Of a stretch of 26,527 nucleotides of DNA, positions 1,215 to 23,079 are shown piece by piece. The stretch's first letter is position 1. Every line of letters starts with the position of its first letter. Position numbers and translations under genes: made by a program. The notes under the pieces were generated by a model that worked only from the letters and a program-made list of their open reading frames with translations, made no database searches and was not told the DNA's origin. This stretch comes from a virus: positions 1 through 26,527 of the IMG/VR virus record IMGVR_UViG_3300032291_002545; one strand, 5' to 3'.

Positions 1215-2009
1215 ATGACAACAAATAAAACTTTGTATTTTTTGCATATACCAAAAACTGCTGGAATGACAGTAGGAGTTAATTTTGCTCAATTTTTGAT
1301 AGCAAACAATCTATCTAAATATCCACCAACGCCACCACCACATAGCGATGTTTCTTCTGAATACGCATTTATTCAAGGGCATTTAGGAAGATATCCAATT
1401 TCACAAATTGAGAATATTTCTGTTGCAACACTTGTAAGAGATCCACTTGATCGTGCAATTAGCAACTTCTTGTATATATATAACAGAGTCCTTTCTAGCA
1501 GAGAAGAGTATACGTCTTTGGCAACAATGGAAGAAAGATTAAAATATTACCTATTTGAAGATCCACTTTACATTTCCCACAGGAATATTCAATCAAAGTT
1601 TATATGTTCTGAACCAGAGTTGAATATGTTCAAGGATATTCCAGAAAACGAAGAAGAAGATTACTTGACTAGATCAAAGCAGTGGTATCTAAAGGATTTA
1701 GATATTAATTTTGAACTTGTTAAAGAAAATATTGATAGTTTTGATATTGTTAATACAAGCAACAAGGTAAATGAATTTATTCAAAAACTAGTTGACTGGT
1801 TTAACGAAAACTATGAAGACCTAGATGTTAAGGTATTAAATACTGAAATTTTCAGCATAAATGACTCATCTCTCAAAATTGGAAGAAAAACATATACCAC
1901 GGCTGGACTCAAGTCTTCTTTGTCAGACCAAGATATAGCAGACTTTTTGGATTTAAACGAAATTGACTTTGAACTTTACGACTACGTCTATAGTATAGAA
2001 AACGCTTAG
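1215..2009 (+). CDS. Sulfotransferase family protein
   Basis: This 264-residue protein has the PAPS-dependent sulfotransferase signature. The N-terminal beta strand and P-loop FLHIPKTAG (residues 10-17) would bind the 5'-phosphosulfate. The 3'-phosphate-binding motif LVRDPLDRAISNF (73-85) matches the usual RdP..R..S pattern. It would transfer sulfate from PAPS to a hydroxyl group, most likely on a carbohydrate or a protein, in the host cytoplasm. The start at 1215 follows an AGAGGA ribosome site. It sits directly after the Pro/Cys-rich surface protein and upstream of a glycosyltransferase and sugar-nucleotide epimerase, so sulfation of a virion glycan is a reasonable inference. The acceptor cannot be read from the sequence. 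Confidence 0.8.
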   Translation: MTTNKTLYFLHIPKTAGMTVGVNFAQFLIANNLSKYPPTPPPHSDVSSEYAFIQGHLGRYPISQIENISVATLVRDPLDRAISNFLYIYNRVLSSREEYTSLATMEERLKYYLFEDPLYISHRNIQSKFICSEPELNMFKDIPENEEEDYLTRSKQWYLKDLDINFELVKENIDSFDIVNTSNKVNEFIQKLVDWFNENYEDLDVKVLNTEIFSINDSSLKIGRKTYTTAGLKSSLSDQDIADFLDLNEIDFELYDYVYSIENA

Positions 2010-2053
2010 ACACGGCCTGTCCCGCTGTCTAAATAGGAAATATGGTAGCCATA
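2006..2053 (+). other. Two consecutive hairpins between genes
   Basis: TTAGACA (2006-2012) pairs with TGTCTAA (2026-2032), extended inward by CGG/CCG with one bulged base, so a GC-rich stem of about 10 pairs starts at the sulfotransferase stop codon. A second hairpin follows: TATGG (2041-2045), loop TAG, CCATA (2049-2053). No T-tract follows either one. They may act as a terminator without a U-run or as an mRNA 3'-end stabiliser before the promoter at 2061. Confidence 0.5.
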
Positions 2054-2060
2054 GGAAGCA

Positions 2061-2089
2061 TTGACTATGTCTATTTGATATGGTACAAT
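2061..2089 (+). promoter_or_regulatory. Sigma70-like promoter TTGACT-17-TACAAT
   Basis: TTGACT at 2061-2066, a 17-base spacer and TACAAT at 2084-2089, with TGG at 2081-2083 forming an extended -10. This is the best complete + strand promoter in the window. The -10 ends 7 bases before the ATG at 2097 and there is no ribosome site, so the mRNA is probably leaderless. Confidence 0.75.
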
Positions 2090-2096
2090 TGTTATT

Positions 2097-2336
2097 ATGA
2101 AAATAAACATTTATAAAGAGGAAAACCTATACATTATGGTCAACGGTAAAAATGGTTTGGATCATTTTTTTAAGAATGTTGACAGTCTAGAATATACAAT
2201 AGAGCCTAGTCCAGCAAATTCACAGAGACATATTCTAAAGTATACATTCGATGGAGAGAATTTTAATATCGGAATTAGCGAGGTCGTTGCAGAGTCTATA
2301 TTAAACAAGTATAGAGTAGAGTTTGTAAATGAGTGA
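2097..2336 (+). CDS. Small protein of unknown function
   Basis: I do not recognise this 79-residue protein. It is mixed beta/alpha in character, with no Cys, no membrane segment and no signal peptide. The start at 2097 is supported by the strong promoter whose -10 ends 7 bases upstream, and no Shine-Dalgarno sequence is present, which fits leaderless translation. It is the first gene of a tightly packed run (2097-5212) whose members overlap or nearly touch, so it is probably co-transcribed with the oxygenase and glycosyltransferase. Its 3' end overlaps the next gene by 8 bases. Confidence 0.65.
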   Translation: MKINIYKEENLYIMVNGKNGLDHFFKNVDSLEYTIEPSPANSQRHILKYTFDGENFNIGISEVVAESILNKYRVEFVNE

Positions 2337-2568
2337 AGAACTTACTCCCTGGCAAAAATATAAACAAAATCTTGGAGAGTCACGTCCATGGGATATGATA
2401 AATCCAAATACAGAATGGGCAAGCGAAGAAAAAGCAGAAGAAAGATACTCTATTTGTAAAGCATGTCCAGAACTAATAAAGTTAACAAAACAATGCAAAA
2501 AGTGTGGATGTTTTATGGCAGGAAAAACAAAGTTAGAAAAAGCAGTTTGTCCACTGGGGAAGTGGTAA
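2329..2568 (+). CDS. Small zinc-ribbon-like protein
   Basis: This 79-residue protein carries ICKACPELIK, then CKKCGCFM and a final CPLGKW. The C-x2-C...C-x2-C-x-C...C pattern suggests a zinc-ribbon fold. I recall similar short proteins ending in CPLGKW in many phages (DUF6171-like, from memory), with no established function. The ATG at 2329 overlaps the end of the preceding gene by 8 bases, pointing to translational coupling. Only three bases separate its stop from the 2OG-oxygenase gene. A metal-binding or protein-interaction role in the modification cassette is possible but is only inferred. Confidence 0.65.
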   Translation: MSEELTPWQKYKQNLGESRPWDMINPNTEWASEEKAEERYSICKACPELIKLTKQCKKCGCFMAGKTKLEKAVCPLGKW

Positions 2569-2571
2569 AAA

Positions 2572-3162
2572 ATGAAAGATCCATTTTTACTAAAAAATGT
2601 TCTTCCACCAAAAGAGCATAAAGATTTACAAAACCTAGCAATGGGTTTATGGGCAACAGACAAAAGCACATATGATCAAGGATTTGGAAGACACCAATGG
2701 ACAATTTGGGATAATACACACGGACCAAACATAGAACCACTTAGAAAGTTTCATGAAATGCTTTTGCCATTAGCAAGAGAAGAATTTGAGTCAAACACAT
2801 TAATTCCATCATGGTGCGTTCTTAGCATCTATGAGGGAGATAAGGCAAGGCTATGGAAGCATAAAGATGACAATGCATGTACATATCACATAAATTACAC
2901 AATTTTCCATAAAACTCCGTGGGATTTTTATGTAGAAGGAGTGAAGTTTGAAGCAGAAGAAAATGATGCAGTTTTTTCTTATGGAAATGATCAAGAGCAC
3001 TGGAGAGAAGAGTTTCCAAACCCAGCAACAAATTTAGTGTCTAATGCATTTTTCTTTTATACAGAGCCAGACCATTGGTTTTTTAAACATGGTCCACAAT
3101 ACCTATATACAGACATTAGAAAAACAGACAATAACGAAAAACCAAAAACTGAAAGCATGTAA
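2572..3162 (+). CDS. 2-oxoglutarate/Fe(II)-dependent oxygenase (prolyl-hydroxylase-like)
   Basis: This 196-residue protein has the double-stranded beta-helix oxygenase pattern. An HxD iron motif lies in WKHKDDN (H97, D99), a distal His in DQEHWRE (H143), and a C-terminal FFFY strand follows. The family uses Fe(II), oxygen and 2-oxoglutarate to hydroxylate a substrate; the closest general type is prolyl-4-hydroxylase-like enzymes, which are common in phages. The usual 2OG-anchoring basic residue about ten positions after the distal His is not obvious, so the co-substrate contact is uncertain. It abuts the zinc-ribbon gene and the glycosyltransferase (stop TAA followed at once by ATG). Given the Pro-rich protein upstream, hydroxyproline formation before glycosylation is an attractive but unproven role. 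A sugar or lipid hydroxylase is the alternative. Confidence 0.7.
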   Translation: MKDPFLLKNVLPPKEHKDLQNLAMGLWATDKSTYDQGFGRHQWTIWDNTHGPNIEPLRKFHEMLLPLAREEFESNTLIPSWCVLSIYEGDKARLWKHKDDNACTYHINYTIFHKTPWDFYVEGVKFEAEENDAVFSYGNDQEHWREEFPNPATNLVSNAFFFYTEPDHWFFKHGPQYLYTDIRKTDNNEKPKTESM

Positions 3163-4194
3163 ATGAATAAGTTATTTTTTCAGTTGTACAACCCCACAGG
3201 TTTAATAAATCAGGTAATGAGTCTTGAGTTGGCAACAGGTCTTTCTCATGAACTAAATATCCCAGTAACAGTTCACTATGCACAATATACTGCAGACAAA
3301 AAACTTTACAATACTGACAACATTCCAATCTTTACTCCTAGCAGGTTTTATAATAAACAAAGAGAAGGATTTACAAATCCAGATCAATATCCACATCTTT
3401 TAGATCTTATGGATTTTGACTCAAATTTAGTTTTTATTAATGAAAAAATAGATCACTTCAAGCAAGAAGAGTTGGTCATTGAAGATATTTTAAATAATTT
3501 TTATTATAGCAACCAGCAAGATATCTCTGATGATGAAAAATATTTTGCAGAAGGAAGAAAAAGGCTACCACTAGACAAGACGCTTCATCTAAAACTTACA
3601 CTTGGATGGTATTCCAGATTTTTTTATAAAAGGACTGATAGCCTTAATAAAGCAATTTCTTCGGTTAGATTTAAAAAAGAATATGTTGACCTAGCAAACA
3701 AGATCTATTACTCAATTGGACATTTTCAGGGAATGCATTTAAGGCTTTCAGACCATGTTAAGATGTTTGAAACAAAGCAAGAAATGTTTGAGTTGTGGTT
3801 AGATAAGTTTGCACAAAATAATCTTCCAATAGTTTTAACAACATGTGAGCCAGGACACAAAATGGTTCAAGACAATAAGCACAGGTTTATATTACTAGAT
3901 GAGTATATTGTAAATAATTTTAAAGATGAATTTATGGCTCTACCATTTCAAGACGAAGTTGTTTTTGGTCTTATATGCAACTTGGTAATGCATCATGCTA
4001 CAAATTTTGTCGGTACATCAGGAAGCACATATACTGCATATATTCATAGAAATAGAAATCAAAAAGGCATAGAGACCTGGGACTTTTTTGACAGCCCTTC
4101 AAAAGAAGTTGGTACCCCATATTCTTGGAATAAGTACCCACTAGACGATGGAAGAAAAATGTGGTGGAGAGAGTGGCCAGAGTCAAAATGCTAA
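3163..4194 (+). CDS. O-fucosyltransferase-like glycosyltransferase
   Basis: This 343-residue protein shows hallmarks of the fucosyltransferase superfamily with a GT-B fold. The conserved GMHLRLSDH (residues 190-198) matches the HxRxxD donor-site motif of protein O-fucosyltransferases, and FVGTSGSTYTAYIH (282-295) matches the F(I/V)G(T/S)xxST motif near the C-terminus. The family transfers L-fucose (or a related L-sugar) from the GDP-sugar to protein Ser/Thr or to a glycan. The sequence begins immediately after the oxygenase stop codon and overlaps the next small ORF by 7 bases. The GDP-mannose 3,5-epimerase homologue at 5255 could supply GDP-L-galactose, an L-fucose analogue. Specificity cannot be read from the sequence. 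Confidence 0.65.
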   Translation: MNKLFFQLYNPTGLINQVMSLELATGLSHELNIPVTVHYAQYTADKKLYNTDNIPIFTPSRFYNKQREGFTNPDQYPHLLDLMDFDSNLVFINEKIDHFKQEELVIEDILNNFYYSNQQDISDDEKYFAEGRKRLPLDKTLHLKLTLGWYSRFFYKRTDSLNKAISSVRFKKEYVDLANKIYYSIGHFQGMHLRLSDHVKMFETKQEMFELWLDKFAQNNLPIVLTTCEPGHKMVQDNKHRFILLDEYIVNNFKDEFMALPFQDEVVFGLICNLVMHHATNFVGTSGSTYTAYIHRNRNQKGIETWDFFDSPSKEVGTPYSWNKYPLDDGRKMWWREWPESKC

Positions 4195-4265
4195 AAAGAA
4201 CTATTTATAAATTTAAAATGTGGAGAAAGTATAGAAAAATTAAAAAAGGTGGGTATACATATTAA
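4188..4265 (+). CDS. Putative 25-residue highly basic peptide
   Basis: An ATG at 4188 overlaps the end of the glycosyltransferase gene by 7 bases. It opens a 25-codon frame that ends in TAA at 4263-4265, whose last A is the first base of the next ATG (TAATG). About half the residues are Lys or Arg, with several Tyr and a Trp. Perfect tiling between two genes in a compact operon supports real translation and coupling. It may simply serve to carry ribosomes across the gap, or it may be a functional nucleic-acid- or membrane-binding peptide. No family is recognised. Confidence 0.5.
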   Translation: MLKRTIYKFKMWRKYRKIKKGGYTY

Positions 4266-5212
4266 TGCTGTTTGATATATTTAGCCCAAGAGTAATCCCC
4301 TATTGTGGAATCAATAGAAAACATCCTAATTCAAATTATTCTCATACTAATGCAATATTAGCATCACATTCAGAAGTAGAGCGACCAGAATATAATTATG
4401 TATGGAATAGTGATGGACTAAGATCTATAGAATTTTCTACAAATCCAGAAATTGTAGTTTTAGGGTGCTCATTAACCTTGGGACAAGGAATGCCAGAAAA
4501 TCTTAGATGGAGTAATATTCTTTCAGATAAAATTAATAGACCTATTGGAAACATATCTTACTCTGGAGCATCTGCTAACTTATTAGTGTCTAGTTTTTTT
4601 GGAATGATTCACCAATACAAATATAAACCAAAAGTAGTCCTTGCACATTTTGCTAACTTTGAAAGATTTTATTTTATTAGTCAAGATGCTAATTCAATGC
4701 ATATGTGGTACATTAATCACAAAGAGAAAAAAACAAAAGCAACAGCACCCTGGGATTATGAAGAAATTTTACCATATGAGTGGGTCTATTATCAAAATCT
4801 AGATCACATTAAAATGCTAGAGGCTTTTTGTGAATCTAATGATATTAAACTAATTTGGACTACATGGTCAAATAGAATAACAGAAGAAGATGAGCAATTT
4901 CTAAAGACTAATTTTAGGCATTATGTTACAGACACAACAAAAACACAATTTCCTACAGCATTTGAGTTTGGATGTAATCCAGAAGATATATCTGGACTGC
5001 CTCCTCACTTTGAAATGATAGATTGGGAGGGATGCCACAAAGAGTATAAAGATCAATACCCAGATATATTTGATCACGCATACGACTACCACAAAGTCCC
5101 TTATAACTATGGAAGACTAAAAGGTCCTGGAGCGCACTGGCCACACCCTGGACTTCACAGGCATTTGCATGTTTCTGAGTTTTGGGAAAAACAAATATCT
5201 GGGTTAATTTAA
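4265..5212 (+). CDS. SGNH/GDSL-like hydrolase (putative carbohydrate esterase)
   Basis: This 315-residue protein has VVLGCSLTLGQG (residues 64-75), in which GCSLT stands in the place of the GDSxT block I, with Ser69 as the likely nucleophile. SYSGASAN (98-105) resembles block II, with its Gly and Asn. Near the C-terminus AHWPHPGLHRH (290-300) is His-rich and could supply the catalytic His of block V. The family removes, or sometimes transfers, acyl groups on sugars and lipids. The start is coupled to the preceding peptide by TAATG. Its place between a glycosyltransferase and a nucleotide-sugar epimerase suggests action on the phage-made glycan or on host surface polysaccharide. The unusual Cys in place of Asp in block I lowers certainty. 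Confidence 0.6.
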   Translation: MLFDIFSPRVIPYCGINRKHPNSNYSHTNAILASHSEVERPEYNYVWNSDGLRSIEFSTNPEIVVLGCSLTLGQGMPENLRWSNILSDKINRPIGNISYSGASANLLVSSFFGMIHQYKYKPKVVLAHFANFERFYFISQDANSMHMWYINHKEKKTKATAPWDYEEILPYEWVYYQNLDHIKMLEAFCESNDIKLIWTTWSNRITEEDEQFLKTNFRHYVTDTTKTQFPTAFEFGCNPEDISGLPPHFEMIDWEGCHKEYKDQYPDIFDHAYDYHKVPYNYGRLKGPGAHWPHPGLHRHLHVSEFWEKQISGLI

Positions 5213-5217
5213 AATAT

Positions 5218-5228
5218 TGATATATACT
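5218..5228 (+). promoter_or_regulatory. Possible -10 element before the epimerase
   Basis: TGATATATACT lies six bases past the esterase stop. Either TATATA (5221-5226, with TGA in front) or TATACT (5223-5228) could serve as a -10. A leader of about 20 bases with a TGAGGAAG ribosome site follows before ATG 5255. No convincing -35 is present. Confidence 0.35.
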
Positions 5229-5254
5229 TTAATTAACAGAATTGTGAGGAAGTA

Positions 5255-6286
5255 ATGAAGACAGCGCTAGTGTTTGGTGCAGGTGGATTTATCGGTAGCC
5301 ATATGGTTAACAGACTTAAGTCTGAAGGGTATTGGGTTAGAGGTGTTGATCTAAAACATCCAGATTTTTCCAATACCCAAGCAGATGAGTTTATCGAAAG
5401 AGATCTTTCTGTTTATGAAAATGTTGAAAAGGCAATCCAGTTTAAGGGGTATCAGGGAAACTTTTATAATGAGATTCCGTATAAGTTAATCACAGGATTT
5501 GATGAAATATATCAGTTTGCTGCAGACATGGGTGGTGCGGGATATATATTTACTGGAGACAATGATTCTCAGATTATGGAAAACTCTGCCTTGATAAACC
5601 TTAATCTTCTTAGAGCCCAGTCAAGACTAAATGCAAAATATGACATTAACAAGACTAAGATATTCTATTCCAGTTCTGCCTGTATGTATCCTGACTATAA
5701 GCAGTTGGATGTCAATAATCCTGGACTCAAAGAGTCTGACGCATACCCTGCAGATCCTGACAGCGAGTATGGCTGGGAAAAACTGTTTAGTGAAAGAATG
5801 TTCTTAGCCTTTAACAGAAACAATAAGATCCCAGTGGCCATTGCCAGATATCACAATATTTACGGCCCAGAAGGAACTTGGGATGGTGGAAAAGAAAAGG
5901 CTCCTGCTGCAATGTGTAGAAAAGTTATACAGGCAGACGGCTCTATAGAAATTTGGGGGGATGGAGAGCAAACTCGTTCATTCCTATACATAGATGAATG
6001 CATAGAAGCAACAAGAAGACTGATGCAATCAGACTTTACTGGTCCTGTTAATATAGGTTCTGAAGAAATGGTTACTATAAATCAACTGGTTGATATTGCT
6101 TGCAGTATTGAGGGCAAGGTTTTAAGTAAAATGCATATACCTGGACCTTTGGGAGTAAGAGGAAGAAATTCTAATAATGACTTGGTCAGAGAAAGACTAG
6201 GCTGGGACTATTCCTTATCCCTTAGAGAGGGAATTGAAAAAACTTATAATTGGATACTTCAGGAAACAAAAAAGAACCCCTCCTAA
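5255..6286 (+). CDS. GDP-mannose 3,5-epimerase-like NAD-dependent epimerase
   Basis: This 343-residue extended short-chain dehydrogenase has the Rossmann motif GAGGFIG (8-14) and the catalytic pair YGWEK (Y172, K176). It also has features typical of plant-type GDP-mannose 3,5-epimerase: AADMGGAG, SSSACMYPDYKQ (Cys143, the expected acid/base), KEKAPAAMCRK, WGDGEQTRSFLYIDEC, NIGSEEMV and IPGPLGVRGRNSNN. These match that enzyme better than generic UDP-sugar epimerases. The product would be GDP-L-galactose (and GDP-L-gulose) made from GDP-mannose in the cytoplasm. It completes the cassette with the O-fucosyltransferase-like gene, the esterase and the sulfotransferase. The stop codon lies in the loop of the hairpin that ends the convergent lysozyme transcript. 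Confidence 0.85.
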   Translation: MKTALVFGAGGFIGSHMVNRLKSEGYWVRGVDLKHPDFSNTQADEFIERDLSVYENVEKAIQFKGYQGNFYNEIPYKLITGFDEIYQFAADMGGAGYIFTGDNDSQIMENSALINLNLLRAQSRLNAKYDINKTKIFYSSSACMYPDYKQLDVNNPGLKESDAYPADPDSEYGWEKLFSERMFLAFNRNNKIPVAIARYHNIYGPEGTWDGGKEKAPAAMCRKVIQADGSIEIWGDGEQTRSFLYIDECIEATRRLMQSDFTGPVNIGSEEMVTINQLVDIACSIEGKVLSKMHIPGPLGVRGRNSNNDLVRERLGWDYSLSLREGIEKTYNWILQETKKNPS

Positions 6287-14016: not shown

Positions 14017-15507
14017 ATGTCAAAGCAAGCAGGTAGAATGAGTCAGTCGGCAAACGACTTCTTAGAGCCAAAAGCACCAATAAATGTTGTTGCAACAGAT
14101 GTAGGAACAAATCGTGCATTTAACAATGGAGCAGCAACAGTTGCTTTTGAACTACCAGCGGGATCACCTGCTGCTACATCCTTTACTGTAACATCAAGTA
14201 CAGGACAAATAATGACAGGGATATCTTCTCCAATTGTTGTGTCTGGAATTGCTTCAGGCGCATATCCAACATTTACTGTAACAGCAACTAACTCATATGG
14301 AACATCAGCAGCATCTTCTCCATCAACTTCTATAACTGTTACCACTGTTCCAGCAACTCCTTCAGCACCATCAGCATCATCTCCATCTGCTGGTACAGAC
14401 TCAGTTTCATGGAATGCACCATCAAATGGTGGAAAAGCAATTACTAACTATTTCTGGTCATCTTCTGATGGAAAATCAGGGAATACAGCATCAACATCGG
14501 TTTCTGTAGGACAAGAGCAGGGAACAGCACAGACATATACAGTCCGTGCAGATAACGCAAACGGAAGTTCTGACACATCCTCTTCATCAGGATCTGTTAC
14601 TACAGCATTCTCATTTGCCCCATTCGGTGCATTTGGTTTCGTGCCAGCACCAACTCCAGTACCAGTCCCAGTGCCAGTGCCAGCACCAGCGCCAGTACCA
14701 GTACCAGCAGCGCCACAGCCTTGCTGTCAGGATGACGATGCTGGTTTCTGTTCTGGAAGAGATTATTATCAGTATCAGTATGACCCATGTACAAATGCAA
14801 ACTGTTCACCTAGACTTCTTGAATCAAACGCTCCTGGATGTCAGCCATTCGGTGCTTTCGGAGCATTTGGAGCATTTGGAGCATTTGGAGCCTTCGGAGC
14901 ATTCGGTGCATTCGGTGCATTCGGTGCATTCGGTGCCTTTGGTGCATTCGGTGCATTCGGTGCCTTTGGTGCATTCGGTGCATTCGGAGCATTCGGTGCA
15001 TTCGGTGCATATGATTTCGGAGGAAAATCTGTAAGCGTAGATACATTGGTTTTGACTACAAGTGGATATACTCAGGCAATAAATCTTAAAGTAGGAGATG
15101 TTCTTGTTTCAACAGAAGTTCCTGGCTTGGGAATCAACTTTACACTTGAAGATGTTCAGAATTGGTCAGGGGATCCAAGTAACCTTTCTATGGTACCTGA
15201 TAAAGAAACAACAATTATGCATATAGGAACTACAACAGCAGAAGAGTCTGTTTCTATAAATGGTGAATTCTATTCAGGATCTCACTACATGCTAGTTAAA
15301 AGAGATGGCGAAGCAAAGATGATTGCTTCTATAGATCTTTTAAACACAGATGAGTTATGGTCTGCAGACACAAATACTTGGGTTGCTATTACTGATTTGA
15401 TTATTACATACTTGCCTCATCAGGTTGTTTCTATCAACTGTGAACCTTATGACATGTTCTATACAGATCATTTCTTAGTGTATGACGGATATCAAACAGA
15501 AAACTAG
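14017..15507 (+). CDS. Fn3/Cys-rich/FGA-repeat tail protein with C-terminal Hint domain
   Basis: This is a 496-residue modular protein. Residues about 20-200 are two fibronectin III-like domains. About 200-233 are Pro-rich linkers; 234-276 are a six-Cys module (CCQDDDAGFC...YDPCT...CSPR). Residues 278-331 are 18 exact Phe-Gly-Ala units. Residues 338-496 match a Hint autoprocessing domain: SVSVDTLVLTTSGYTQ aligns with intein block A, with Ser338 as the position-1 nucleophile; SGSH (H423) fits block B TxxH; YDMFYTDHFLVYDG fits block F (D484, H485); and the protein ends in Asn496 right at the stop codon. A Hint domain cleaves, or transfers, the preceding segment by an acyl shift. The penultimate residue is Glu rather than His and there is no C-extein. 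The start has an AAAGGAG ribosome site. Confidence 0.75.
   Translation: MSKQAGRMSQSANDFLEPKAPINVVATDVGTNRAFNNGAATVAFELPAGSPAATSFTVTSSTGQIMTGISSPIVVSGIASGAYPTFTVTATNSYGTSAASSPSTSITVTTVPATPSAPSASSPSAGTDSVSWNAPSNGGKAITNYFWSSSDGKSGNTASTSVSVGQEQGTAQTYTVRADNANGSSDTSSSSGSVTTAFSFAPFGAFGFVPAPTPVPVPVPVPAPAPVPVPAAPQPCCQDDDAGFCSGRDYYQYQYDPCTNANCSPRLLESNAPGCQPFGAFGAFGAFGAFGAFGAFGAFGAFGAFGAFGAFGAFGAFGAFGAFGAFGAFGAYDFGGKSVSVDTLVLTTSGYTQAINLKVGDVLVSTEVPGLGINFTLEDVQNWSGDPSNLSMVPDKETTIMHIGTTTAEESVSINGEFYSGSHYMLVKRDGEAKMIASIDLLNTDELWSADTNTWVAITDLIITYLPHQVVSINCEPYDMFYTDHFLVYDGYQTEN
14716..14847 (+). repeat. Cys-rich module copy (paralogous to 651-782)
   Basis: This six-Cys segment begins QPCCQDDDAGFC and continues GRDYYQYQYDPCT, then CSPRLLES. 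It is nearly the same protein sequence as the module at 651-782, while the codons differ at many third positions. The DNA has therefore diverged while the protein was kept, which suggests functional constraint rather than a recent copy. Confidence 0.8.
14848..15009 (+). repeat. 18 tandem 9-bp units encoding (Phe-Gly-Ala)18
   Basis: There are 18 perfect-frame 9-base units (TTC/TTT-GGN-GCN), with mixed synonymous codons, between the Cys module and the Hint domain. Lengths would vary in whole triplets, so slippage would lengthen or shorten the linker without breaking the Hint domain. The unit has glycine and aromatic residues like an elastic or self-associating linker. Confidence 0.95.
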
Positions 15508-15512
15508 AAATA

Positions 15513-16034
15513 GTGATAAAAGTTGGGGATGCGTCAAAACTTGAAGGATTTGAATATCCAGAACAACTAAAAGGTGCATGGTTTTACTATGTATTTTTTG
15601 AGAATCACCCACTTGCAGATATAGATGGAATATGTTGTATATATTTTAATGACAAGTATCCAAGCGGATCCGTATACACTGGGAAGTATATTTTAAATGA
15701 TTATCCAGACGCATATTCTTCGTGGAGAAAACCAGACGAAGATGGCAATGTAAAGTCAGATAGAGTTCTTGTATCTCCCATATTGAGGAATAAAGGTATT
15801 GCTATAGCAGGTGGCGCATACGGAATGACAATGTTAAAAAACATTTTTAATAAAACAGTTTACCATGCATCTGGTTCAGAATTTGCAAATAAAGCATATG
15901 CCTCTGCTGCTGAAATTGCAAATCTTCCTAAATACGATAACCCAGGAATAGATATAGGAATTCACATGAAAAAAGATTTTTTTGATCAACCAGTTTTCCC
16001 ATATGTTTTTTTTGGAAGAAGAGTTGTAGAATGA
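15513..16034 (+). CDS. Putative GNAT-like acetyltransferase
   Basis: This 173-residue protein begins with GTG at 15513, six bases after the preceding stop, with no clear ribosome site, so coupling is likely. A central segment LVSPILRNKGIAIAGGAYGMTMLKNIF resembles the acetyl-CoA-binding motif A of GNAT enzymes (R-x-x-G-x-A with a following helix), and YHASGSEFANKAYASAAEI fits the usual later helix. If correct, it would transfer an acyl group to an amine. Place and coupling to the Hint protein could mean action on a virion component. The match is by pattern only; another fold is possible. The 3' end overlaps the next gene by four bases (ATGA). Confidence 0.45.
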   Translation: MIKVGDASKLEGFEYPEQLKGAWFYYVFFENHPLADIDGICCIYFNDKYPSGSVYTGKYILNDYPDAYSSWRKPDEDGNVKSDRVLVSPILRNKGIAIAGGAYGMTMLKNIFNKTVYHASGSEFANKAYASAAEIANLPKYDNPGIDIGIHMKKDFFDQPVFPYVFFGRRVVE

Positions 16035-19341: not shown

Positions 19342-22300
19342 ATGTCTACTCCATCAAACCTATATGCAGAAAAAGTGTTTGCAGAACACCCAATAGGTTT
19401 GTGGGCACTAGATGACAATGTAGACTATATTTCTTTAATTTCAGAAGAGTCTAGAGATCTTTCTTTGTGGAAGGTTTATGGAGGAACTGCTTCTAGATAT
19501 TCTGAGTCTGTAGGAGAGCCATTTATTGACAGTTATGTTGGTAAGATTACTGCTGACAGAATATTAGCAAAAACAGGAACAATTACTGCAGTAAGTCCAA
19601 AAATAGTTAATGTAAAAGAGTTAAACTCTTATCTAAGAACATTTTCTGTAGGTGGGTATTTTTATTCAGAAAGTTCTTATATCTCAGGGTTTTCAATTGG
19701 ATATCAATACATTGATCAAACTAGTAGTACAGTAATAACACATGTTAAAGATTTTGACACAGTTATAAATAATAACTGGGTTTTTATATCAGAAACATTT
19801 GATGCTCCGCCAGATGATACAGATATTAGAATAGTTTTTAAAATTAACTTTGTTGGAGACGAAGACCAAGATCATTCATTTAGAGTAAACGGTATAACTT
19901 TTGGTCAGTGGTCAGAAGAGTTTTCTTCAACATCTTTGGGCATAAGCGCTACAAACATTCCTTCTACAATATCGATTGCACCACAAAAAGGAATTGTTGC
20001 TAAATGTTATGGATTGCAAGAATTTAATGGGTATTACATTGTTTCTGAAAACATGTTAAAAGCAAAAAACTCTGGAATCCCTTTGGTTTACGGAACACCT
20101 GGACACACAACTTTATATGCAAACAATGGCTTACCATCTTTAATAGTTCCTGGCTCTGGAATGCTAAACAAGACTGGACAATATAAACAATATACTTTAG
20201 AAACTTGGATTAGAATAAATTCATATACAAACGAAACTAAAAGAATCATTGGTCCAATAGGTTCTTCTGATGGAATATATGTAGATGGTCCAGCAATAGG
20301 TTTAAAAATTGGAAACGAATACTCTACAAATTACGTAGGTGAGTGGACAAGGCCTATGCTTTTGCATTTAAAGGTTGGAAAAGATAATGCCTCTATTTTA
20401 ATTAACGGAGAAGAAGTAGTTTCTATTCCATATTCTCAAGAACTTGCAGAACTTCCATCACAATTTTTAAACGGAAAAGATCAGGACTGGATAGGCTTTT
20501 ATGCTTATGAAGATGTTTCTCCTATAGATATAGACTGTGTAGGAATTTATCCATACTTAGTTGCTAGTCAAGTTGCAAAAAGAAGATATGTTTTTGGACA
20601 AGGAGTTGAAATTCCAGAGAACATTAATACATCTTACAGTGGAACATCTGTCTCAATCGACTACTCATTTGCAGACTACACCGCCAATTACTCTTATCCA
20701 AAAACAGGTTCTTGGAATCAGGGCTTTAGCGACAACATGTCAACAACAAACAAATCTCTTGCTGTGATATCTCATCCACTACCAGAAATTATACTTTCTT
20801 CTAAAACACCGTCAGAGTTATTTCAAGATAACAAGTTTGCTAATCGCATAGAAGATCAGTCCAATTTCTTTTATGATACCAAAGACTATTTTTCTTTTAG
20901 GCCAAACTCTTCCTGGAGTAGTGTGTCTGGATATCTTTTCTTTGAAAATTTTGATATTTTAAAAACACCTATATCAGCATTTTATGGATGCTTCCAGTTA
21001 AAAAATAATGCAACAACACCACAAATACTTTTCAAAATTGAAAAAGAAAACACTTCTAATTATTTTAAAATACAGGTAGAAAACAATATACTAAAATATA
21101 TAATAAGTGTAAATGGTCGATCAGAAACTCTTTATTCTTCAGAAGTTTTAAATCAAAGCGAATTCTTTGAGGTGGGAGTTAACATTCCTAGGTTTGTAGA
21201 AGTTTTTGGAAATCCTGTATCAGACTTTTTTGGATCTTTTTCAGACTTAAGAATGTTTGTTGGTGGAGATAAAAACAACTTAGAACAGTTTGACGGTAAG
21301 ATTTATAACATAGGATTTTCAACAAAATACAACTTTCAAAAAATTAAAAACTTGTTTAATGAAATAGGTGTTCCAAAACTAAATGAAGATCTTTTCTTTG
21401 CCTATCAAACAAATCAACTAATAGATATTGATGCAGGTATCGACACCACATCATTGCCACCATACGGAGCATTAACAGACACATCCCCAGGAGCAGTGTC
21501 TGGCGGAGGAGTAATACTTTTAGAGGAAGACTTTTTGGTGGAACACATAGCAACATACACCTTAGTTCCTGATATTTTATTTGATAGGTATACTCTTGCT
21601 GTTGCATCAAATGCGTACTGGGAAGATAATATTCCACTAACATATTTTGCAGAGTCTGTTTTTGATAAAAGAGGAGATCAATATTTTGATCTTGATTTTA
21701 TCCAGTTTAATATTAACTATCCAATTCCAACAAAAACAATTGCTATAGAAACTGATCCAGTTGATTGGACATATGCAGATCTTGCTAATGAGTACGGTGT
21801 GCCAATACAAAGAACTTATGAATCTTTGGATAACTACCTGTTTACTGGCTACAATGATTACGAAGATTTAAAAAATAAAATATCAAAAGACTATAGGTAT
21901 GATACCGACGGTTCACTTGCAAAAACCTATGTAACATTCCAATATACAGAACTTGGAGCAAATGCAACTTCATCATATTTTACTAAGGTAGAAAGACCTT
22001 CAAGAAACGGGGTTTTAATTCCAGGTACAGACTGGATGACAACAAAGTATGAGGTTGTTGATAATATGATTATCTATCCTCCTTCTGGAGTTGATTTTAA
22101 TGATCTTTCAATTGTCACACATATAGATGTAAATGTAAAAAATTCTCAGGTAAACAATATCAGCATAAAAAATATGTCGTATGCATCACAAGCCCTTAAT
22201 GAATCTGATGCAAGCCCAATTGGAACTCGTTTTGGAACTCCTATATACCCTTACACAAAAACTGGAATTTACTATAACTTTAAAAAGAATAATCCATTTT

Positions 22301-23079
22301 CAATTTATAACGCATCGTCTCCATATCTTTATTTAACCAAGACAAGCGGAATTCAGTTAAAAGGAAAATATGACCCACTTGTAAATAGGGGTCTCATGAT
22401 ACCAATTAACTCAAGCAGAGCAGAAGGCTTTAAGGTTATTGCAATGCAACTTGCAATTAGGTTTGATGGAGACTATTTTCCATATGCACCAACAGAAATT
22501 TTTGAAATAGAGAGTAAGGGATCTTATATTAAATTTTATCTCGTTGCCTGTGATCCAAGCGGAAGACGAGCAAAAATCTATGGAATTGATTCAAAGACTG
22601 GCCTTGTGCAGGACGGGATAGGATTTTATTGGAATGGCAAGATTGTAAAAGAGCCAGTCGTTACTCTTCAAGACTGGGGATTCTTGGGCATTAGTTTTGC
22701 AGATAGCCTAGATTTTTCATATTTCGAGGGAGCAATCAGACTAACTGGCCCACTGCTATTCAACAATATATCTTTCTATCAGTCAACAAACCTTCAAGAG
22801 GTTCAGAACATATCTGAAAGACCTTGGTTTAGGGTCAAGGTTCTAAATTCTACTGATTTAGATTGGAAATTCTGGAATGTTGGGTCATTTAACTGGAATA
22901 AGGTGCTAGTTTTGTCAGAAACAAGTTATTATGGTGTAAATCCATCTGAAGTCTATAAGAGTTATACGGGAACCAATAAGATTATAGTAGATGATGAAAA
23001 GGTTTTAAGGTTTGGAAGTTATAAGTATACAGCCTACAATGAGGTTGGATGGAACCAAATAGTTGTTGATCCAGTTTAA
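19342..23079 (+). CDS. Large multi-domain tail protein with LamG/concanavalin-like domains
   Basis: This is a 1245-residue protein. The start NLYAEKVFAEHPIGLWALDD resembles the opening of LamG/concanavalin-type domains. Further lectin-like jelly-roll segments can be seen around residues 225-425 (YTLETWIRINS...LKVGKDNASILINGEEV), about 510-670 (FEVGVN...FSDLRMFVGG...FDGKIYNIGFS) and near 1040-1210. The order of strands and the Trp/Tyr-rich, Cys-poor composition fit a virion tail-tip or minor tail protein that binds carbohydrate. It lies right before the head genes. Catalytic residues are not visible, so binding rather than cleavage is the better guess. It is probably leaderless. Domain limits are rough. 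Confidence 0.65.
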   Translation: MSTPSNLYAEKVFAEHPIGLWALDDNVDYISLISEESRDLSLWKVYGGTASRYSESVGEPFIDSYVGKITADRILAKTGTITAVSPKIVNVKELNSYLRTFSVGGYFYSESSYISGFSIGYQYIDQTSSTVITHVKDFDTVINNNWVFISETFDAPPDDTDIRIVFKINFVGDEDQDHSFRVNGITFGQWSEEFSSTSLGISATNIPSTISIAPQKGIVAKCYGLQEFNGYYIVSENMLKAKNSGIPLVYGTPGHTTLYANNGLPSLIVPGSGMLNKTGQYKQYTLETWIRINSYTNETKRIIGPIGSSDGIYVDGPAIGLKIGNEYSTNYVGEWTRPMLLHLKVGKDNASILINGEEVVSIPYSQELAELPSQFLNGKDQDWIGFYAYEDVSPIDIDCVGIYPYLVASQVAKRRYVFGQGVEIPENINTSYSGTSVSIDYSFADYTANYSYPKTGSWNQGFSDNMSTTNKSLAVISHPLPEIILSSKTPSELFQDNKFANRIEDQSNFFYDTKDYFSFRPNSSWSSVSGYLFFENFDILKTPISAFYGCFQLKNNATTPQILFKIEKENTSNYFKIQVENNILKYIISVNGRSETLYSSEVLNQSEFFEVGVNIPRFVEVFGNPVSDFFGSFSDLRMFVGGDKNNLEQFDGKIYNIGFSTKYNFQKIKNLFNEIGVPKLNEDLFFAYQTNQLIDIDAGIDTTSLPPYGALTDTSPGAVSGGGVILLEEDFLVEHIATYTLVPDILFDRYTLAVASNAYWEDNIPLTYFAESVFDKRGDQYFDLDFIQFNINYPIPTKTIAIETDPVDWTYADLANEYGVPIQRTYESLDNYLFTGYNDYEDLKNKISKDYRYDTDGSLAKTYVTFQYTELGANATSSYFTKVERPSRNGVLIPGTDWMTTKYEVVDNMIIYPPSGVDFNDLSIVTHIDVNVKNSQVNNISIKNMSYASQALNESDASPIGTRFGTPIYPYTKTGIYYNFKKNNPFSIYNASSPYLYLTKTSGIQLKGKYDPLVNRGLMIPINSSRAEGFKVIAMQLAIRFDGDYFPYAPTEIFEIESKGSYIKFYLVACDPSGRRAKIYGIDSKTGLVQDGIGFYWNGKIVKEPVVTLQDWGFLGISFADSLDFSYFEGAIRLTGPLLFNNISFYQSTNLQEVQNISERPWFRVKVLNSTDLDWKFWNVGSFNWNKVLVLSETSYYGVNPSEVYKSYTGTNKIIVDDEKVLRFGSYKYTAYNEVGWNQIVVDPV

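Follow-up and report, generated by a model that had tools for sequence, protein, structure and literature searches.

The 26,527 nucleotides analysed here (positions 1 to 26,527 of the IMG/VR virus record IMGVR_UViG_3300032291_002545, in the following called the window) encode a putative phage display protein that carries an apparent autoprocessing domain of the Hint type at its very end, and the question arises what such a domain would do in this position. From our point of view, the best reading is that the Hint domain cuts the chain, or transfers its upstream part, at Lys337|Ser338 in the manner of Hedgehog or B-type intein-like (BIL) domains. We estimate the probability that it processes the display protein at its own N-terminal edge at about 0.66, the activity itself being deduced from the comparisons given below.

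Layout of the display protein and its relatives

The gene (14017-15507; like all features located below, on the plus strand) encodes 496 aa, and its frame and coordinates were borne out when the open reading frames were checked again; the same layout recurs in the homologues. An Fn3/Ig-like region with a Pro/Val-rich end (residues about 1-234; 14017-14718) is followed by a Cys-rich module that was read in the translations (residues 235-277; 14719-14847; CCQDDDAGFC...) and by a low-complexity linker (residues 278-331; 14848-15009), in which we counted exactly the 18 perfect FGA units that the preliminary description had given. A short YDFGG linker joins these units to Lys337 (15025-15027), which occupies position -1 of the junction, and the Hint domain extends from Ser338, its position 1 (Ser1), to residue 490 (~153 residues; 15028-15486). 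The N-terminal assignment draws on homologues with fn3 matches (L134, L133 and L128) or PASTA matches (L104, L132 and L138), the window protein itself having no Pfam fn3 match in the single-sequence search, and the label "fibre" is our deduction from the modules and the gene context. The Cys-rich module is common to the Hint protein and the ORF at 135-1190, where it (CCQDDDAGFC...YYQYQYDPCT) is repeated between TPVAP-type repeats.

A search of IMG/VR returned 61 places with the sequence and 192 with a profile, and a search of genome contigs found no relative. From the IMG/VR matches, 111 distinct rows were used to assess Ser1, with the Hint start of L211 and L222 corrected by eye to NTF|SINFNT for this count, and 58 rows were used for close inspection of the residues.

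In every locus read, the protein ends in the Hint domain, which stands behind a linker, mostly a low-complexity one (FGA, GFGHY, Pro-rich or FSPFG). The modules in front of it are swapped between Fn3-like regions, PASTA domains and long Fn3 arrays; mapped onto the Hint tree, they have changed five times or more, and in L132 and L133 closely similar Hint domains follow PASTA and Fn3 modules, respectively. Such swapping in front of a constant terminal domain is the behaviour of a portable processing domain. The proposed "Hog-like" layout, i.e. a display part, a linker and a final Hint domain, is upheld by homology, by the predicted fold and by the invariance of Ser1 and of a block-B His, and residues 337/338 do form a conserved junction.

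The terminal domain belongs to the Hint superfamily

Searches of Pfam, PHROGs and the PDB with the single sequence gave only low-complexity or chance matches, no Pfam or NCBIfam model recognises the family above its cut-off, and hhalign comparisons with single sequences of Npu DnaE, gp41-1 and Drosophila Hedgehog reached block A at most or yielded nothing useful. When a profile of the homologues was used, the similarity to Hint domains was far beyond chance: a bacterial intein-like domain in the PDB was matched with an E-value of 2.1e-6, and the C-terminal Hint domain of an Alcaligenes phage tail protein was aligned over its full length (E 2.7e-8). Members of the family also match the Hint end of phrog_38766, a virion structural protein of jumbo phages.

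The AlphaFold model of the domain (pLDDT 87, pTM 0.81) retrieved with Foldseek, as best matches, the intein-like domains 2lwy (E 2.6e-7) and 6y75, along with inteins and the Hedgehog structures 1at0 and 6tyy, with TM-scores by target of up to 0.79; relatives from uncultured Caudovirales phages in UniProt matched it structurally with a TM-score of 0.83 over the query. Profile matches and fold thus both confirm the Hint call of the preliminary description. With the fold, a nucleophile at position 1 and block B all present, the C-terminal domain is a member of the HINT superfamily, and residues Ser338 to about Asp490 are a divergent Hint domain.

Conserved and replaced residues

Ser338, which had been proposed as the block-A nucleophile, is invariant in all 111 distinct IMG/VR homologues. 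Both TCN and AGY codons are used for it, with at least four switches of codon class on the tree, an indication that selection acts on the residue itself. The SGSH motif was likewise correctly placed as block B (S420-G-S-H423, positions B:7 and B:10; 15274-15285): residue 423 is His and residue 420 is Ser or Thr in 58/58 rows, and the motif pairs with TPEH of the Alcaligenes phage tail protein in the profile alignment.

The assignments further downstream have to be revised. His485 had been aligned with a Hint block; it is variable (H20 R13 N12 K7 and others among the 58 rows). The terminal Asn496 had been read as the end of the domain, preceded by a Glu in place of the penultimate His, but only eight of the 58 rows have Asn there, within a tail of varying length, so that this reading was misplaced. 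The true block G is Val488-Tyr489-Asp490 (15478-15486), the equivalent of the HN of inteins, which pairs with VHN of the Alcaligenes phage protein and is followed by the tail GYQTEN. As it occurs in so few rows, the terminal Asn was also rejected as the cyclising residue. Across the 58 rows, residue 489 is Tyr (27), His (24) or Phe (7) and residue 490 is Asp (55) or Asn (3), the variants being V-Y-D in the window, T-H-D|S in the sister clade and V-Y-N in a few rows; the extension after block G measures 2-16 residues in 57 of them (6 in the window protein) and 42 in the remaining one.

The nearly invariant motif of block F, I473-N-C475-E-P-Y-D479 (15433-15453), had escaped the preliminary description. 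C475, E476, P477 and D479 are each present in 58/58 rows, and in the alignment to the Alcaligenes phage protein, which has the canonical Cys1, TPEH, Asp, His and His-Asn at the aligned positions, Ser472 pairs with the Asp of F:4 and Asp479 with the block-F His.

A GNAT-like gene accompanies Lys337

Directly downstream of the Hint gene lies a gene for 173 aa (15513-16034), a candidate partner that would act on Lys337. We regard its product as GNAT-like, a putative acyltransferase assigned with moderate confidence on the basis of an R/Q-x-x-G-x-G/A motif (RNKGIA in the window, non-canonical in the PASTA clade), of weak matches to Pfam GNAT families in 10/33 rows (best 2e-4), and of a model (pLDDT 84.5) whose Foldseek matches are nearly all acetyltransferases. 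It resembles these enzymes in the motif A-like RxxGxA, the predicted fold and the expected acylation of an amine, and differs from known members in being very divergent (best Foldseek E 0.02), in the motif of the PASTA clade and in its constant place beside a Hint gene.

Within the window's half of the tree, most loci have a gene of this family behind the Hint gene, with one gene between them in L128 and L129, and in most of the PASTA clade the two genes overlap. Its presence goes together with a Lys at position -1: 47 homologues have both, 59 have neither, L091 has only the Lys and L135 (SKG|S) only the gene, so that an adjacent GNAT-like gene is found in 47/48 homologues with the Lys vs 1/60 without it (Fisher p 2e-28, with rows that are related by descent; the count excludes one short contig and two rows whose start was unclear).

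It could be argued that this association reflects shared ancestry, in that one clade happens to have both traits and the enzyme does not act on the Lys, and we give this explanation a little less than even odds. For each trait the tree implies only about five changes, an independent-pairs test was not significant, with too few events to reach significance, and L091 and L135 break the rule in opposite directions. Against it, all three losses of the Lys within the window's Fn3 clade (L020, L026/27 and L092) are confined to the four lineages, out of 20, that lack the GNAT-like gene (P 0.0035, lineages collapsed by hand), the 56 loci found by searching for the GNAT family all adjoin a Hint gene except three that are cut by the contig start, and the pairing persists at only 25-30% identity between the GNAT-like proteins. 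The neighbour's probable role in the window's clade is to modify Lys337. One could further speculate that the two genes form a C-terminal processing system, in which the Hint domain opens the chain after the Lys and the enzyme acylates or otherwise modifies that Lys; this is a tentative proposal, to which we give clearly less than even odds, and if true it would represent a phage counterpart, in logic, of the cut-and-modify maturation of Hedgehog.

Several observations on neighbouring genes may be added. L091 is a close relative with zinc-ribbon-like and other genes downstream of 590, and its sister L092 has lost both the Lys and the GNAT-like gene. A downstream gene for 138 aa was rejected as the specific partner because its cluster also occurs in clades without the Lys. 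In the other main Hint clade, a family of ~247 aa (cluster c7) directly follows the Hint gene, in the slot that the GNAT-like gene occupies in the window (L054, L055, L057, L059, L061, L136, L158, L161, L162, L165 and others), and could be an alternative partner.

Proposed processing and alternative explanations

Processing at the N-terminal edge is favoured by homology, the predicted fold, the conserved Ser1 and block-B His, the exchange of the modules upstream and the link between Lys(-1) and the GNAT-like gene. In the reaction that we propose, Ser338, aided by His423 and Ser420, would attack the carbonyl of Lys337 (N-to-O acyl shift), and the ester would then be hydrolysed or passed to another nucleophile. 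The display protein would be left ending in the linker ...YDFGGK and the Hint part would be freed, and the adjacent GNAT-like protein would probably act on Lys337. Members of the window's clade probably make no use of the C-terminal intein reaction, because block G there ends in Tyr-Asp and is followed by Gly. Against processing stand the replacement of canonical helper residues (Ser at F:4, Asp at the position of the block-F His and the Tyr-Asp C-terminus), the moderate assignment of the GNAT-like protein and the few independent changes that couple it to the Lys. Moreover, the ester route from a Ser1 is usually slower than that from a Cys.

The same replacements, and the fact that the Hint domain was never lost from the protein end in the loci seen, would also fit a fold that has given up cleavage and now plays a purely structural part at the fibre end, as an anchor or a folding cap. 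We regard this as unlikely, since a cap would need neither a Ser1 that stays invariant across switches of codon class while the preceding residue varies, nor an invariant block-B His, nor a -1 residue that is tied to a neighbouring gene. Less probable still is splicing, in which the domain would act as a full mini-intein or an A-type intein-like domain and join the display part to the short tail, for example in THD|SSAI of the sister clade. Ser follows His-Asp in 22/24 rows with His489, a tail of the form S-x-x-I/V is conserved in the PASTA clade, and inteins ending in Asp are reported to splice, to judge by the title of a paper (JBC 2004;279:3121) cited in PMC4031507. However, Tyr-Asp|Gly in the window's clade offers neither a +1 nucleophile nor an Asn, the tails vary in length and sequence, and the pairing of His489 with Ser+1 rests on about three changes, too few for this co-variation to be accepted as proof of splicing. 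A mechanism resembling that of class 3 inteins, with the invariant Cys475 of block F as the first nucleophile, appears highly improbable and was rejected, as Cys475 lies three columns after F:4 in the alignment to a canonical Hint domain and as class 3 inteins lack the position-1 nucleophile (PMC4031507) that is invariant here. Cleavage or transfer at Lys337|Ser338 remains the preferred reading.

Relation to known Hint systems

Hint domains, autocleavage by B-type intein-like domains and the Hog layout are already known (PMC7765530, PMC4031507). The closest likeness is to the BIL domains, the B-type in particular (PMC7765530); BIL domains provide the best Foldseek match and share blocks A and B and the variable protein context; as in these, intein motifs occur without the C-terminal motif, and N-terminal cleavage would be expected to proceed without a C-terminal His-Asn. 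The window protein differs from them in its Ser1 in place of Cys, its INCEPYD motif, the Asp at the position of the block-F His and its C-terminal [YHF]-[DN]. With the Hog domain of Hedgehog it shares a display or signal part followed by a terminal domain of the Hint fold and, as predicted here, N-terminal cleavage that needs no C-extein. In contrast to Hog it has a Ser1 and no sterol-recognition region, as the protein ends 6 residues past block G, and the profile alignment to Hedgehog reaches block A only. Canonical class 1 inteins have a C-terminal His-Asn and a +1 Cys, Ser or Thr and are inserted into a conserved host protein with a C-extein, whereas the window has Tyr-Asp|Gly and a terminal Hint domain behind an upstream part that is swapped.

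A homologous C-terminal Hint domain with a short tail also ends phage structural proteins with a collagen-like fibre part, namely the "virion structural protein" phrog_38766 of Alexandravirus and the tail protein XUE01657 of Afa-NA1. These differ in having Cys1, a canonical His-Asn end (AHN|T, VHN|M) and collagen and Ig modules, and show no similarity to the window protein outside the Hint domain. Within the sampled loci, L144:5002-6441, L145:5002-6441 and L001:2017-3447 are jumbo-phage tail or virion structural proteins with collagen-like repeats and an Ig-like region, whose C-terminal Hint domain has Cys1 and HN and is followed by a tail of 10-12 aa; a literature search found no virion proteomics of these jumbo-phage relatives. 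The same modules together with the Hint domain occur in A0A6J5NY54, A0A6J5NYB8 and A0A6J7WKC1 of uncultured Caudovirales phages in UniProt, whose labels ("PASTA", "Fibronectin type III", "Hint domain containing") are automatic annotation only and for which the literature search yielded no study.

The literature search returned no study of a family of Ser1 Hint domains that end modular phage display proteins and no description of the INCEPYD motif or of a lysine-linked GNAT-like partner. If active, the domains would make these display proteins of tailed phages, whose hosts are probably actinobacteria, a self-trimming family that is common in IMG/VR and goes unrecognised by Pfam and NCBIfam; Hint chemistry would here be put to use in maturation instead of selfish insertion. 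From the invariant Ser1, the exchangeable modules before it and the lysine-linked partner, the mature C-terminus can be predicted exactly, and the family could become a source of Hint domains with Ser1 that accept widely differing fusion partners upstream.

Genomic context

Neighbouring genes upstream of the Hint gene resemble those of tail fibre proteins, and downstream lie the genes of a head maturation protease and of a portal protein that shares 48% identity with portals of Streptomyces phages, which points to a structural role in an actinobacterial phage. The Hint protein is thus likely to be a structural protein of a phage of actinobacteria and would presumably be located in the virion. 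Two genes upstream of the portal gene, the window encodes a protein of 1245 residues (19342-23079) that has no Pfam or PHROG match. A cluster of modification-type genes at 1215-6286 comprises a sulfotransferase, an oxygenase-like protein (phrog_2954) and a nucleotide-sugar epimerase, which suggests a decoration of surface proteins or glycans.
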